The position numbers and the translations under genes were made by a program. Shown piece after piece: positions 7,776 through 64,000 of a stretch of 64,000 nt of DNA. Numbering within the stretch: position 1 is the stretch's first letter; every line of letters starts with the position of its first letter. The notes under the pieces were generated by a model, which saw nothing but the letters and a program-made list of their open reading frames with translations, did no database searches and was not told the DNA's origin. This DNA is from Levilactobacillus fuyuanensis (lineage in GTDB: Bacteria > Bacillota > Bacilli > Lactobacillales > Lactobacillaceae): the NCBI RefSeq assembly GCF_003946395.1, contig NZ_RHNZ01000009.1, forward strand, positions 1-64,000, in the 5' to 3' direction.

Positions 7776-9609
7776 TGGACGTGGATCTGTAACCAAACAA
7801 CGGCCACAAAGTTTCTGGGGCACGACGATTCGGCTCTTCCGTTACATGGGCCGCTGGATTCCAGGCATTATAATTGTGTTAATTTTTGCCGCGATTGCCG
7901 TTGTTTTACAAATTAAAACCCCTAAAATTTTAGGGAAAGCCACCACGGAACTCTTTAAAGGGGTTCTGAAAGGCCAAGCCGAGTTAAAGGCGGGGCTCCC
8001 GATTCACAGCTTACCAGTGAACTTTGACAAAATTGGCCAAATTTTGCTGGTCGTGGGAATTATGTACGCCGCCGCTGCGGTCTTCAACGTGATCCAACAG
8101 GTGATCATGAACTGGATTGCCCAGAAGGTCGTGTACCAACTCCGGCGTGATTTGAAACAGAAGATGCAACACTTGCCAATCAGTTATTACGATACCCACA
8201 GCAACGGGGACTTGATGTCTCGGATGGCTAACGATATGGATAACATTGGGGGGACGCTCCAACAGACGCTATCACAAATGGTGACGAGTGTTCTGACGTT
8301 CTTTGGGGTCCTCTACATGATGCTGACCATTAGTGGTTGGCTGACGTTGGTGGCCTTGATTTCAGTGCCACTGAGTTTAATTGTTGTCATGGTCGTGGCG
8401 CCAAAGTCACAACGCTTCTTTGCCAGTCAACAGAAGAACTTGGGATTGCTGAATGATACGGTTGAAGAGACTTACGCGGGTCATACCGTTGTGAAGACAT
8501 TCAACCGGGAACGAGCAACGCAAGAACAGTTTGAAGAACATAACCGGAAGTATTATCAATCAGCCTGGAAGGCCCAATTTGTCTCCAGTCTGATCTTCCC
8601 GTTGATGAACTTCGTAAAGAACTTGGATTACCTGGCCGTTGCCGTTATTGGTGGGATTCAGGTTGCTAATGGGCAAGTTAGCTTGGGGAACGTGCAAGCC
8701 TTCCTGCAATATACCAACCAGTTCTCGCAACCAATTACGCAGATGGCCAATCTGACCAACACGATTCAGGCGACGATTGCGTCCGCTGAACGGGTCTTTG
8801 CCGTCTTGGATGAAACTGATATGGATGAATCCGCCGATGCTGCCTTACCAGAGCACACGGCTGATGCGGGTAACGTCATCGAATTTGATAACGTGGCCTT
8901 CCAATACGATCCTAAGAATCCACTGATTGAAGACTTCAATCTGAAGGTCAAACCAGGTGAAATGGTCGCAATCGTTGGGCCAACTGGTGCCGGGAAGACA
9001 ACCATCATTAACTTGTTGGAACGCTTCTACGACGTTGGTTCTGGCCAGATCAAGTACCGTGGTGAGAACACCAATAGTGTTGCGCGGGCCGAGTTGCGGA
9101 AACATTTCGCAATGGTGCTGCAAGACACTTGGCTCTTCACCGGGTCCATCTTCGATAACATTCGCTACGGGCGTGAGAACGCCACCGAAGAAGAGGTTTA
9201 CGCGGCTGCCAAGGCGGCTCACGCAGACACCTTTATTCGCCAGTTACCGGAGGGGTATGACACGGTGCTGAACGAAGCCGCAACGAATATTTCCCAAGGA
9301 CAACGCCAATTGTTGACGATTGCGCGGGCCTTCGTGGCCGATCCGGATGTCTTGATCCTGGATGAAGCGACGAGTTCGGTCGATACTCGGACGGAAATGC
9401 TGATTCAACACGCGATGGAACGCCTATTGGCGGGCCGGACCAGCTTCGTGGTGGCGCACCGTTTGTCTACGATTCAAAACGCGGAAAATATTGTGGTCAT
9501 GAATCATGGGCACATTGTTGAAACGGGGAATCACGACAGCTTGTTGGCGGCCGATGGTTTCTACGCCGACCTCTATAACAGTCAATTCGCCGGCAACAAC
9601 TTGGCTTAA
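7768..9609 (+). CDS. ABC exporter, catalytic-site half of a heterodimer
   Basis: 613 residues, starting at the ATG that overlaps the upstream stop (AAAGGGGG ribosome site). An N-terminal membrane domain (about 1-340) includes a long insertion between helices 1 and 2. The nucleotide-binding domain has Walker A GPTGAGKTT near 403 and a complete Walker B with catalytic Glu (VLILDEATSSVD near 528). The switch His is present (VVAHRLST). Its signature is altered (ISQGQRQ instead of SGGQ). It therefore supplies the hydrolytic Walker residues, while its partner supplies the intact signature for that site. Translational coupling by the 8-base overlap fits a 1:1 complex. Confidence 0.9.
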   Translation: MRNGRGSVTKQRPQSFWGTTIRLFRYMGRWIPGIIIVLIFAAIAVVLQIKTPKILGKATTELFKGVLKGQAELKAGLPIHSLPVNFDKIGQILLVVGIMYAAAAVFNVIQQVIMNWIAQKVVYQLRRDLKQKMQHLPISYYDTHSNGDLMSRMANDMDNIGGTLQQTLSQMVTSVLTFFGVLYMMLTISGWLTLVALISVPLSLIVVMVVAPKSQRFFASQQKNLGLLNDTVEETYAGHTVVKTFNRERATQEQFEEHNRKYYQSAWKAQFVSSLIFPLMNFVKNLDYLAVAVIGGIQVANGQVSLGNVQAFLQYTNQFSQPITQMANLTNTIQATIASAERVFAVLDETDMDESADAALPEHTADAGNVIEFDNVAFQYDPKNPLIEDFNLKVKPGEMVAIVGPTGAGKTTIINLLERFYDVGSGQIKYRGENTNSVARAELRKHFAMVLQDTWLFTGSIFDNIRYGRENATEEEVYAAAKAAHADTFIRQLPEGYDTVLNEAATNISQGQRQLLTIARAFVADPDVLILDEATSSVDTRTEMLIQHAMERLLAGRTSFVVAHRLSTIQNAENIVVMNHGHIVETGNHDSLLAADGFYADLYNSQFAGNNLA

Positions 9610-9630
9610 GGACTGTGTATTGTAACCAAT

Positions 9631-9834
9631 AGTGGAGCCGCCTCGGTGGCCAGAAATTCCGCCTGCTGTGGGGACCGCCTGCAGCCAAAGGGCGGGCTTC
9701 CGGCTCGGTTTGAAACCTCGCGAAAATCATGCGAGTTTCCAAACACGTCCCGTGGTGTAAGGCCGGGAAGAAACAAGCGCCCGGTCTAACGCCACTGTCA
9801 CGGCTGGCTGCATTCCTGGCCACCTTCGGCTCAT
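9631..9834 (-). repeat. Dispersed structured element, copy 1
   Basis: Minus-orientation copy of the approximately 200-bp intergenic element. Shared landmarks are the closing helix CCAGGAAT/ATTTCTGG, a GACCGGG...CCCGGCC hairpin with loop GCTTGTTTCTT, the long hairpin built on GTTTGGAAACTCGCA, and the conserved GGAAGCCCG...GGCTGCAGGCG block. Outer arms CCAA-AGT/ACT-TTGG flank it. It begins only 21 bases after the exporter stop codon and encodes nothing credible; a 108-codon frame through it is an artefact. Confidence 0.85.
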
Positions 9835-9942
9835 GAACTGTTGGGTGGCAATATGGGAGCAGGGTTTAGCACCGTTTGGTTCCCAGCAGATTGTCTGCGA
9901 GTGTTGTCTAGATTAGGATAAACATTTAGAGACTTTACAGTG

Positions 9943-11338: not shown

Positions 11339-11558
11339 GTTAAAACTAGCCTAGCCGGAGGAGGTCAGGGATGGCACCAGCCGTGAAAGCGGTGTTAGAC
11401 CGGGTGCTTGATTCTTCCCGGCCTTACAGCGTGGGACGCGTTTGGAAACTCGCATGAACCTTGCGAGGTTTCAAACCGAGACGGAAGCCCGTTCTTTGGC
11501 TGCAGGCGGTCCCCACAGCGGCAGAATCCCTGACAGCCGCAGGCGACAGTTCTTAACC
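11339..11558 (+). repeat. Dispersed structured element, copy 2
   Basis: Plus-orientation copy. Outer arms GTTAAAACT/AGTTCTTAAC surround the closing helix TCAGGGAT/ATCCCTGA. Inside are the CCGGG/CCCGG hairpin with the conserved GCTT in its loop, a long hairpin GTTTGGAAACTCGCA/TTGCGAGGTTTCAAAC, and the GGAAGCCCG...GGCTGCAGGCGG block. It lies between the bidirectional terminator and the end of gatD. Most similar to copy 4. Confidence 0.9.
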
Positions 11559-11567
11559 GCGCCAGAA

Positions 11568-12272
11568 CTAGAAGGTTGCTGGAATCGGTAAAGCTTCCTG
11601 CTGGCTGAAATCAGCCTCGGGGAACTTGCGCCTGAGCGCGGCAATCAGCAAATGCTTTGCGATGTCACCGTTCCGCGTCAAGATTGGGCCATGGAAGTAG
11701 GAGCAGTAGACGTTCTTGTAAATCGCGCCTTCCGTTCCGTCCTCGCCATTATTGCCCTTACCGCTGACGACGTTCCCTAGTGGCCGTTCATCAGCGCCCA
11801 GATAGGTCAGACCTTGATGATTTTCAAAGCCGTGGTAGGTCTCGCCAGTTTCCTGGTTCTTGATGACGATGTCGCCGATGAAGCGGTTGTGGTCCTGAGC
11901 CAACGTGTAGTGGTCAAGGGCACCGATACCAGGCAATTTTTCTCCATTAGCCCCAATGTAGTAGTGGCCGAGCAGTTGGAAGCCCCCACAGATGGCTAGA
12001 ACGGGACCACCAGATTCGATGAATTTGGTCAGTTCAGCCTTTTTCGTTTGAATGTCTTGTGAGACGATGGTCTGCTCAAAGTCTTGGCCACCGCCGAAGA
12101 AGGCCAGGTCGTAGTCGGCAGCTTGAAAATCTTCCTCCAGGCTGACGACCTTAACGTTTAAGTGGACGTCCATTTGCTTGGCATAGTAGTTCAGCGCCAA
12201 GATATTTCCCACGTCACCATAGGTGTTCATGAGATTGCCGTACAGATGGGCCACGTTTAATTCATATGTCAT
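11568..12272 (-). CDS. gatD: Lipid II isoglutaminyl synthase, amidotransferase subunit GatD
   Basis: 234 residues of the CobB/CobQ-like class I glutamine amidotransferase family. The nucleophile is C95 in LAICGGFQLLG, the catalytic His is H194 in YFHGPIL, and R130 matches the conserved Arg used for glutamine binding. GatD releases ammonia from glutamine and passes it to MurT, which amidates the D-Glu of the lipid II stem to D-isoglutamine. This step is needed for efficient crosslinking in many Gram-positive bacteria. Its ATG overlaps the murT stop by four bases (ATGA), so the two are translationally coupled. Confidence 0.95.
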   Translation of the reverse strand: MTYELNVAHLYGNLMNTYGDVGNILALNYYAKQMDVHLNVKVVSLEEDFQAADYDLAFFGGGQDFEQTIVSQDIQTKKAELTKFIESGGPVLAICGGFQLLGHYYIGANGEKLPGIGALDHYTLAQDHNRFIGDIVIKNQETGETYHGFENHQGLTYLGADERPLGNVVSGKGNNGEDGTEGAIYKNVYCSYFHGPILTRNGDIAKHLLIAALRRKFPEADFSQQEALPIPATF

Positions 12273-33682: not shown

Positions 33683-33985
33683 ATGGCTGAAATGGTAAAG
33701 TATTTTTGGACAAAATCAGTTGCTGATGGCACCCGAATTGGTTTAACCACTGAAGGGCAAGACGAGTTAGGCACCATCAAATTCGCCAAGTTACCTGCAG
33801 TTGGCGACACGGTCAAGAAGGGTGAAAACCTATTGAGCGTGGAAGCTGATAAGGCTGTTTCCGACATCCAAAGCCCAGTTTCTGGTAAAGTTGCCGCCGT
33901 TAACCCAGCGTTAGCTAGCGACTTCGATGCCTTAAACGGAAGCGATACTGACGCCGCTTGGTTTGTGGACGTCCAAGAAGCTTAA
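33683..33985 (+). CDS. gcvH: GcvH-like lipoyl-domain protein
   Basis: 100 residues, shorter than standard GcvH (about 125). The lipoylation lysine is K57 in VEADKAVSDIQSPVSGKV. GcvH carries the lipoyl-aminomethyl group in glycine cleavage and in Firmicutes also relays lipoate to other enzymes. No gcvT or gcvP is nearby, so a lipoyl-relay or stand-alone role is more likely; this is inference. AGAGGAG precedes the ATG, 17 bases after rodA. Confidence 0.88.
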   Translation: MAEMVKYFWTKSVADGTRIGLTTEGQDELGTIKFAKLPAVGDTVKKGENLLSVEADKAVSDIQSPVSGKVAAVNPALASDFDALNGSDTDAAWFVDVQEA

Positions 33986-34057: not shown

Positions 34058-34272
34058 ATTGTGACTACCGCCTCCGGCTACCAGGGGTTCTGGTTGCTAT
34101 GGGGATCGCCTGCAGCCGAAGGGCGGGCTTCCGGCTCGGTTGGGAACCTCGCGAAGTTCATGCGAGTTTCCCAACTCGTCCCACGCTGTAACCCCGGGGA
34201 GAAGTAAGCGCCCGGGGTAACACCGTCGTCACAGCAACCGTCACCCCTGGCCTCCTGCGGCTAGGCAACAAT
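34058..34272 (-). repeat. Dispersed structured element, copy 3
   Basis: Minus-orientation copy. Closing helix CCAGGGGT/ACCCCTGG, hairpin ACCCCGGG/CCCCGGGGT with the GCTT loop, long hairpin GTTGGGAAACTCGCA/TCGCGAGGTTCCCAAC, and the GGAAGCCCG...GGCTGCAGGCG block. The outer arms are ATTGT/ACAAT. The base changes relative to copies 1 and 2 fall on both sides of each helix. A 78-codon frame across it is an artefact. Confidence 0.9.
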
Positions 34273-41792: not shown

Positions 41793-42033
41793 CAAAAGAA
41801 AAGGGCCATTCAATGGAATGGCCCTCAAAGCACGAATGCTTTTGATGATCTAAGTGGTGCCGTTAATTGTCTAGTCATGTTGACCCGCGATGACAAATGC
41901 AGGGGGGAGAGCGTGGCAGAGCGTCTGACTTCCAAGTGAAAAGGCGTGTCATGTTCTCTGCCCGTAGGCAATCCCGTTTTATAATTACTTGTTCGGCAAC
42001 TTGTAGTGAGACAACGCGTACACCTTAGAACCA
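41793..42033 (-). ncRNA. ssrS: 6S RNA (Lacto-usp type)
   Basis: A non-coding transcript read from the minus strand. It starts about 42032 below a good promoter and ends at a strong terminator: AGGGCCATTC/GAATGGCCCT, then a T-rich exit (41793-41825). It folds with a closing helix TTGCCG/CGGCA, flanking AAGT/ACTT, a large internal bubble, and a distal hairpin GGCAGAG/CTCTGCC. This is the 6S plan of a rod with an open-promoter-like bubble. It lies directly after rarA, the position of the 6S-1 gene in Bacillus, and upstream of a hypothetical gene plus usp, the published context of the Lacto-usp motif. 6S RNA binds the housekeeping RNA polymerase. Confidence 0.75.
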
Positions 42034-42038
42034 ATTGT

Positions 42039-50502: not shown

Positions 50503-50723
50503 GATGAAAATTAGCCTAGTCGGAGGCGGCCAGAGATGGCGCCGGCTGTGACGGCGGTGTTAGTCCGGGCGCTTGGTTTTCCCCGGGCTTACAGCGCGGG
50601 ACGCGTTTGGAGACTCGCGAGATCCTAGCGAGGCTTCAAGCCGAGCCGGAAGCCCGTACTTTGGCTGCAGGCGTTCCCCATAGCGGCAGAATCTCTGGCC
50701 GCCGCAGACGACAGTTTTCACCC
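50503..50723 (+). repeat. Dispersed structured element, copy 4
   Basis: Plus-orientation copy with outer arms GATGAAAA/TTTTCACC and closing helix CCAGAGAT/ATCTCTGG. The GTCCGGG/CCCGGGC hairpin keeps the conserved GCTT. The central hairpin TTTGGAGACTCGC.../...GCGAGGCTTCAAG and the GGAAGCCCG...GGCTGCAGGCG block follow. It starts 47 bases beyond the ezrA terminator and ends about 40 bases before the nifS promoter. Confidence 0.9.
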
Positions 50724-54058: not shown

Positions 54059-54064
54059 ATGTAA

Positions 54065-54298
54065 AAGTAGCGTTGAACAAGTCAGTAGCGTCGAGGAAAT
54101 TGCTCAGAGAGCCGGGAATGCTGGAAACCGGTGAATTACCTGACGTGAACGTAGCTTGTGAGCTGCTGGGCTGAACCAAAAGTAAGCCCGACCGGAGCAC
54201 TCTCCGTTAACAAAGAAGTTAAGTGGGGCATAAACGCCCAATTTAGGTGGTACCGCGAAGACTCTTCGTCCTAATTTTTAGGATGAGGAGTCTTTTTG
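54065..54298 (+). promoter_or_regulatory. T-box riboswitch, valine
   Basis: A tRNA-sensing leader ahead of valS. Stem I contains AGAGAGCCGGGAATG and ends near GCCCGACCGG. The likely specifier codon is GTA (54151-54153) in the setting GTGAAC-GTA-GC, which codes for Val. The antiterminator T-box TTTAGGTGGTACCGCG (54244-54259) is followed by a terminator GACTCTTCGTCCT/AGGATGAGGAGTC with a T run. Uncharged tRNA-Val would stabilise the antiterminator and switch valS on. Confidence 0.95.
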
Positions 54299-54401
54299 TG
54301 TTCACCGACAGTTAACTTAGTTGTCGTTGTTGTGAAAGACGAAGCTGAACGTTAAGTGATTGACAGTTAGCCAGTAAGAGAAAAGAAAGGAATTGATTCA
54401 T

Positions 54402-63799: not shown

Positions 63800-64000
63800 G
63801 TTGTGAACGGTCGCCTGCGGCTGCCAGAGATTCTGCCGCTGTGGAGACCGGTTCAAGCCTGGGAGTCGGTCTTGAACCTCGCCTCGAAGCCACAGAAATC
63901 GTGTCTTCAAAGCGTCCAGTCCTGTAGGGTCGGGAAGCCCATCCGTCCCAACAGGACGCCCACGGCTGGCGCCATCTCTGGCCTCCTCCAGCTTTGACTG
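63800..64000 (-). repeat. Dispersed structured element, copy 5 (divergent, at window edge)
   Basis: Minus-orientation copy, running to the end of the window. Closing helix CCAGAGAT/ATCTCTGG and the ends (GGAGGAGGCCAGAGATGGCG and GCGGCAGAATCTCTGGCAGC) match copies 2 and 4. The middle has changed: GTCCTGT/ACAGGAC and GGTTCAAG/CTTGAACC hairpins replace those of the other copies. It begins 18 bases after the minD terminator. Confidence 0.8.

Follow-up and report, generated by a model that had tools for sequence, protein, structure and literature searches.

A dispersed intergenic element with a conserved strand-specific fold in Levilactobacillus fuyuanensis and other Lactobacillales

The window analysed here, the first 64,000 nucleotides of contig NZ_RHNZ01000009.1 of Levilactobacillus fuyuanensis, holds five copies of a non-coding, intergenic element of about 200 bases. 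Five copies were also what a sequence-only reading of the window had claimed, and this held: a covariance model built on 26 own-genome copies (R1) places each no more than 8 bases from where that reading had put it, with scores of 125-238 bits. Copy 1 (9630-9838, - strand, 209.7 bits) is antisense to the gene that ends at 9609, with its 3' end 21 bases away from that gene end; at this site, L. parabrevis carries an orthologous copy (188 bits with R1), and several other Levilactobacillus genomes have no R1 match, a terminator-like hairpin lying there soon past the stop. Copy 2 (11346-11554, + strand, 237.9 bits) ends 14 bases from the end of a convergent gene (11568-12272, - strand), and 75 bases separate the 3' end of copy 3 (34060-34269, - strand, 211.6 bits) from the gene ending at 33985. 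Copy 4 (50511-50719, + strand, 230.6 bits) is bracketed by a copy-specific flanking stem, GCGAAGGATGAAAAT / GTTTTCACCCTTCG. Copy 5 (63803-64000, - strand, 124.9 bits), the most diverged of the five, is truncated by the window edge and forms the left half of a head-to-head pair, its partner lying beyond the window (C54:64022-64230, + strand, 40.6 bits with R1). Elsewhere in the window, positions 41843-42034 (- strand) match 6S RNA over the full model below the gathering score (34.4 vs 46.4 bits, E 0.0027) and are likely the 6S RNA of this genome, and a T-box leader (54064-54276, + strand, 124.5 bits) lies upstream of a long ORF starting at 54393.

The landmarks described in the sequence-only reading, namely a closing helix, a CCGGG hairpin with GCTT in its loop, a long central hairpin and a GGAAGCCCG...GGCTGCAGGCG block, are visible both in the alignments and in the predicted fold, and its claim of a dispersed, structured, non-coding element held, with copies sitting in unrelated flanks. 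In the predicted plan, a long outer helix (P1) closes a junction of hairpins P2, P3 and P4. In copy 2, for example, P1 spans 11354-11545 on the + strand, with a 5' arm at about 11354-11388 and a 3' arm at about 11510-11545 (limits read by hand from RNAalifold on 29 own-genome copies). On the same strand, P2 (11389-11432) is a CCGGG...CCCGG stem with GCTT in the loop, P3 (11437-11478) is the long central hairpin CGCGTTTGGAAACTCGC...GCGAGGTTTCAAACCG, in which a G-U pair is frequent, and P4 (11481-11509) is the GGAAGCCCG...GGCTGCAGGC block. Among relatives, both the sequence and the length of P2 vary. Several unpaired or otherwise special positions are conserved, among them GTG close to the junction, GA.A and GGCT around P3, CGAG, and AGACC...GGCT in P4. 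What the sequence-only reading missed were the head-to-head pairing, the strand-specific covariation, the constraint in place, the copy-specific flanking stems and the spread across Lactobacillales.

Support for the fold comes chiefly from covariation. RNAalifold on the 29 own-genome copies called 59 pairs, 23 of them with compensatory double changes, and a model-fitted alignment of 41 diverse copies showed double changes in 53 of 60 pairs, with a covariation of 0.610 compared with 0.188 in shuffled and at most 0.09 in slid controls; in the between-genera comparison, most pairs occur as at least three pair types. Since model-fitted alignments lean towards the model, the test was repeated on 26 diverse copies aligned with MAFFT, blind to structure. 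This recovered P2, P3, P4 and P1, the last without its inner stretch adjoining the junction, and double changes were present in 39 of 49 pairs. Covariation on an alignment not fitted to structure, the criterion for a structured RNA, is thus met; transcription itself is inferred, without data. Taken singly, a copy has just a moderate folding advantage over its own shuffles (z=-2.7), and the case against chance folding therefore rests on covariation. A coding element was rejected, as insertions, deletions and double changes track helices and not codons.

The fold is also strand-specific. Within the genome, one-sided departures from Watson-Crick pairing were G-U in 45 instances and A-C in 6, compared with 86 and 49 in shuffles; this count omits pairs at which G-U is the commonest state. 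Across genera (49 rows, two antisense rows having been dropped), the corresponding figures were 122 and 47, compared with 313 and 263 in shuffles, and 22 of the 122 fall at one position where G-U is commonest. This excess of G-U over A-C indicates that the + strand is the strand whose fold matters. One position in P3 has G-U as its commonest pair, in 25 of 29 own-genome copies and 20 of 41 diverse copies.

That five copies in 64 kb implied many per genome was likewise borne out. The sequence-only reading had proposed building a covariance model, counting its hits in this genome and across Lactobacillaceae, and testing the copies against Rfam, all of which was done. R1 gave 148 matches at E<=1e-3 in the 2.72-Mb genome, showing that copies are not confined to the window; one place matched on both strands, and with only 150 of 932 candidates scored, the number of places is at least 147. 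A blastn search with the copy at 11339-11558 likewise returned at least 40 own-genome matches at 80-100% identity (40 of 156 candidates scored). A broader covariance model from 41 diverse copies (R2) gave 115 matches in 452 kb of the genome, corresponding to 90 copies after antisense duplicates were dropped and one copy cut by the end of a stretch was joined; these stretches were picked partly for holding hits, so the density is not to be extrapolated.

Among 35 genomes of the genus, 32 have R1 matches (own included), 26 have at least 44 (own included) and 18 reach the ceiling of 69 scored candidates and thus hold at least 69; no R1 match was found in three (G004, G011 and G024). R1, run with strict filters, matched 19 of 151 Lactobacillaceae genomes (own included), which belong to 8 of 40 genera; R2 matched 27 of 295 Lactobacillales genomes in 13 of 74 genera. 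In three other Lactobacillales families, R2 matches are weaker (best E per genome 4e-9 to 6e-4), and outside the genus copies are more diverged and sparser; weak matches are present, for instance, in family f2. At 20 loci of more distant genomes (21 distinct rows), 94.7% of cells were paired and 45 of 60 pairs doubly changed in a model-fitted alignment. Across 348 genomes of the class, with 7 candidates scored per genome, R2 matched the own genome and none of the 347 others, a result that therefore also serves as a check on false positives. A separate pattern scan of named genomes matched only Levilactobacillus parabrevis ATCC 53295 and a metagenome-assembled genome (MAG) of an uncultured Lactobacillus, in 31 stretches in total. 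One copy searched against 72,556 plasmid and 50,697 phage records found no match, nor did two copies from family f2 searched against the plasmid records. No window copy matched Rfam 15 (cmscan) at the gathering score or at E<=5, and no copy in 14 loci of relatives did so at E<=1. No description of the element turned up in the open-access literature searched, and the claim that it belongs to no known named family stands within these limits. A second subfamily with the same plan, with outer arms around GCCAAATTTGG or similar, was seen at L094, L095, L096, L110 and L111.

Copies are arranged in a distinctive way relative to one another and to genes, as judged from greedy ORF calls and not from annotation. 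Among 25 pairs of neighbours within 600 bases in the same gap, 24 are (-)(+), with their 5' ends facing and spacers of 34-366 bases; one is (-)(-) and none is (+)(-). Of 87 copies flanked by a gene on either side, 76 have the 3' end closer to a gene than the 5' end. The gene on the 3' side is antisense in 54 of these 87, at a median of 23 bases from its stop (33 within 50 bases), and sense in 33, at a median distance of 75. Gaps holding copies comprise 55 tandem, 21 convergent and 11 divergent gaps, set against a background of 133, 47 and 49. Orientation to transcription is mixed, with 33 copies antisense to both neighbours and 22 sense to both. Upstream promoters show no excess (9 of 64 copies vs 12 expected), and only 9 of 64 have four consecutive T within 25 bases of their 3' end, again without excess; an own promoter and a general terminator role were accordingly rejected. 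With orientation mixed and no promoter excess, the route to a + strand RNA is left open. In another genus (G178), the same B-spacer-A pair lies at two loci with unrelated flanks (L143 and L144), its spacer homologous by eye, so that the pair is a repeated unit there; in the own genome, one pair among 13 spacers compared was similar (80% over 45 bases). In several other genomes of Levilactobacillus, it is the GCCAAATTTGG-type subfamily that makes up the opposite half of such head-to-head pairs.

Orthologous sites show the fold being kept in place, once a complication is removed. At 9 of 39 sites with both flanks matching, the interior falls below 80% identity and the arms and flanks are retained, indicating that gene conversion between copies, or replacement, is frequent. 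Compensation at orthologous sites was accordingly rejected as proof of selection, being partly an artefact of these block-swapped interiors, and the in-place test was restricted to pairs of at least 85% identity. It comprised 27 copy pairs against L. parabrevis or the MAG, with both 250-base flanks matching and 25 distinct own-genome copies represented. Differences fall at 127 of 3135 paired sites (4.1%), 187 of 1788 loop sites (10.5%) and 83 of 486 sites at the model edges (17.1%), with paired bases slower than loops in 25 of the 27 pairs. Single changes from Watson-Crick to G-U numbered 55, compared with 29 to A-C (p=0.006), and three other cut-offs agree (p 0.003 to 0.009).

One objection is that the relatives' loci were found by a pattern demanding part of P3, and the test was therefore redone on non-matching pairs and without P3. 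In 15 pairs whose relative copy lies outside the pattern, paired sites differ at 4.2% and loops at 9.2% (slower in 13 of 15), with 28 changes to G-U and 17 to A-C (p=0.14). Excluding P3 from all 27 pairs gives 4.3% and 10.3% (slower in 26 of 27), with 42 and 25 changes (p=0.05). The slower change of paired bases is hence robust, the in-place G-U excess less so, and the fold is kept in place at individual orthologous sites. Block replacements were also observed in L061/L120, L034/L131, L047/L131 and others, where arms and flanks stay but the interior, in many cases P3-P4, comes from another subfamily; such replacements are likely instances of ectopic gene conversion in intergenic DNA.

The bases just outside many copies form copy-specific inverted repeats, the best with runs of at least 13 consecutive pairs. 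In 65 copies, the nearest 12+12 flanking bases have a mean duplex energy of -4.80, compared with -2.70 +- 0.22 when partners are shuffled (z=-9.4), and the next 12 give -3.12 vs -2.18 +- 0.20 (z=-4.6); no such excess is seen between the first 8 and the last 10 positions of the model itself (z=+1.3). These outer stems show no overall compensation in place: in 24 orthologous pairs (of 26 picked by hand), native stems averaged -12.6 and chimeric stems -12.3 kcal/mol (p=0.98), native being better in 8 and worse in 9, with L059/L120 the one clear exception. The stems may have been inherited from landing, a suggestion made by analogy to EFAR elements; no intact stem-loop empty site was seen.

The search for empty sites yielded remnants. 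At the site of the copy at 50511 in the window, L. parabrevis retains just the two ends of copy 4; at C23:11037 its copy lacks P2 and P3, and at C34:149363 some 20 bases from one end seem, by eye, to survive in the MAG. No copy could be recognised at C23:13848 in L. parabrevis or at C23:67257 in the MAG, though the gap could not be aligned at either site. No clean empty site was thus found in close relatives, every site examined having a copy, an internally deleted remnant or an unalignable gap. Reading the flanks by eye, and not systematically, revealed no target duplication of constant length. Among 71 own-genome copies compared, the most similar two share 92.5% identity, and there is therefore no sign of very recent movement in this genome.

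The earlier claim that copies lack a transposase and clear target duplications stands, and no common mobiliser emerged. Y1 transposases were found in 23 of the 35 genus genomes and were not found in 8 with at least 44 matches, several of them drafts. RVT_1 was found in 10 of the 35, and not in the own genome. ISL3 transposases, also found in 23, were not found in seven genomes with at least 44 matches (G006, G007, G017, G020, G022, G026 and G027), and copies lay near ISL3 genes at only 1 of 17 Levilactobacillus loci examined (30 fetched). In two genomes, G017 (44 matches) and G020 (at least 69), drafts of 70 and 170 contigs, none of the three was found. Y1, RVT_1 and ISL3 were each rejected as common mobiliser, as none occurs in all copy-rich genomes; draft assemblies can lose repeated genes, and these absences are therefore not proof. 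The mobiliser is thus unknown or gone, ISL3 being the sole DDE partner looked for. The sole clear association of the structured element with an insertion sequence (IS) is in genome G266 (L160-L166), where all seven listed R2 matches, of up to 33.5 bits, lie inside copies, 95-100% identical, of a 1.78-kb ISL3-type element. One of these copies was read from end to end; there the structured part lies between the transposase and the right end of the ISL3-type element, and 8-base target duplications are readable in the 5 copies with both ends shown. A cargo transposon was also rejected, since the one longer gap between facing copies that was read (C2, L005) holds a gene, which by eye we take to be FusB-like, and not a transposase.

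We favour, at a probability of roughly 0.55, a family of non-autonomous mobile elements of the EFAR/bcr1 kind whose folded + strand is functional. Under this reading, the + strand would fold single-stranded, most likely as RNA, into the fixed P1-P4 shape, and the fold would be recognised for movement by a trans-acting enzyme supplied by an unknown or since lost partner. The element would land in or beside short stem-loops at gene ends, retaining the target arms, and landed copies would then be homogenised by gene conversion. Transcribed at gene borders, the fold may be retained by being useful or less harmful than an unfolded copy. Counting against this reading, no mobiliser was found, and neither a fresh copy, a clean empty site nor a target duplication of constant length was seen. 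The weaker in-place G-U excess in the pattern controls, the lack of extra complementarity at the model ends, the mixed orientation and the missing promoter excess also weigh against it, and covariation in model-fitted alignments leans towards the model.

Other explanations account for parts of these data. The elements could be a host regulatory RNA (a leader, an attenuator or a 3' UTR stabiliser) duplicated many times, with mobility old and irrelevant. The strand-specific fold, the constraint in place and the many copies that lie only some tens of bases away from a start or stop codon speak for this, but the absence of any orientation rule relative to transcription, of a promoter or T-run excess at copy ends, and of R1 matches in 3 of 35 genus genomes make it unlikely. 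We also consider it improbable that an HUH enzyme moves a DNA hairpin in single-stranded form, in the way that RAYT moves REP/BIME elements, the G-U/A-C asymmetry then marking a folded DNA strand. Gene-end location, inverted pairs and a strand-specific fold are features known of REP/BIME, and in DNA too a G-T mismatch is milder than A-C, which lends support; against it stand the 8 genomes with at least 44 matches and no Y1 transposase found (several drafts), the P3 position at which G-U is commonest (25/29; 20/41), and a fold that is multibranched and no hairpin.

Two further possibilities are weaker still. Were the structured part an end or passenger of an ISL3-family IS and spread by it, the matches in G266, all inside an ISL3-type element, would be explained; yet the single Levilactobacillus locus in 17 with an ISL3 gene near copies, the seven genomes with at least 44 matches that show no ISL3 transposase, and element ends that by eye are unlike IS ends render this very unlikely. 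The pairing could instead be a by-product of DNA repair, through template switching in imperfect palindromes without selection, as the long inverted arms and copy-specific flanking stems might suggest. This leaves unexplained both the excess of G-U over A-C and the conserved unpaired bases, and the outer flanks show no compensation in place overall, L059/L120 excepted; it is already disfavoured and we regard it as highly improbable. Beyond the favoured mobile-element reading lies a bolder one, which remains possible: a mobile structured bacterial RNA, that is, a short, protein-free 'SINE-like' element common to several Lactobacillales families, often head-to-head with its 3' ends facing genes, and with its RNA fold selected at a large share of more than 100 sites in one genome. 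If this were true, the gene borders of the genome would be studded with one functional RNA.

The element belongs to a known kind, the dispersed structured intergenic repeats of bacteria. EFAR elements of Enterococcus faecalis reportedly target stem-loops, whose stems are then partly retained at the ends of the element; the copy-specific terminal inverted repeats seen here (z=-9.4 for the nearest 12 bases) match such target stem halves, and EFAR-like insertion into stem-loops would explain them. EFAR may be the Efa-1 family (PMC2267715), a structured intergenic element of 163 bases with 65 copies; Efa-1 is an adjacent stem-loop pair predictable on both strands (PMC2267715), whereas the element here is a closed multi-helix junction and strand-specific. 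The bcr1 element of the Bacillus cereus group is intergenic, about 150-167 bases long and present in tens of copies with a conserved structure, and has been termed MITE-like and suggested to be transcribed (PMC3446304, PMC2267715); its host belongs to another order, and R2 found nothing in the 347 other genomes sampled from the class. ERIC, BOX and RUP are also high-copy, structured intergenic repeats (PMC2267715). ERIC is a single long stem-loop (PMC2267715), unlike the element here. RUP and ERIC are tied to IS transposases; no partner has been found for our element. REP/BIME elements with RAYT share gene-end location, inverted pairs and a folded strand with it. REPs measure 20-40 bases (PMC3733652), compared with about 200 here, and the Y1 enzyme was not found in 8 genomes rich in copies of our element.

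Within Rfam 15 and the open-access literature searched, the element is undescribed. What sets it apart from the repeats compared is its junction of several helices, its strand-specificity, the head-to-head arrangement of its copies and its presence across Lactobacillales. That nearly all neighbouring copies lie head-to-head, with 3' ends turned to genes, also suggests a mode of movement not yet described. Bacterial intergenic repeats tend to be viewed as selfish debris; what is unusual here is a complex, strand-specific fold held back from change at single sites between species. With this fold also common to several genera and present in over a hundred copies in one genome, host benefit becomes directly testable in food bacteria.
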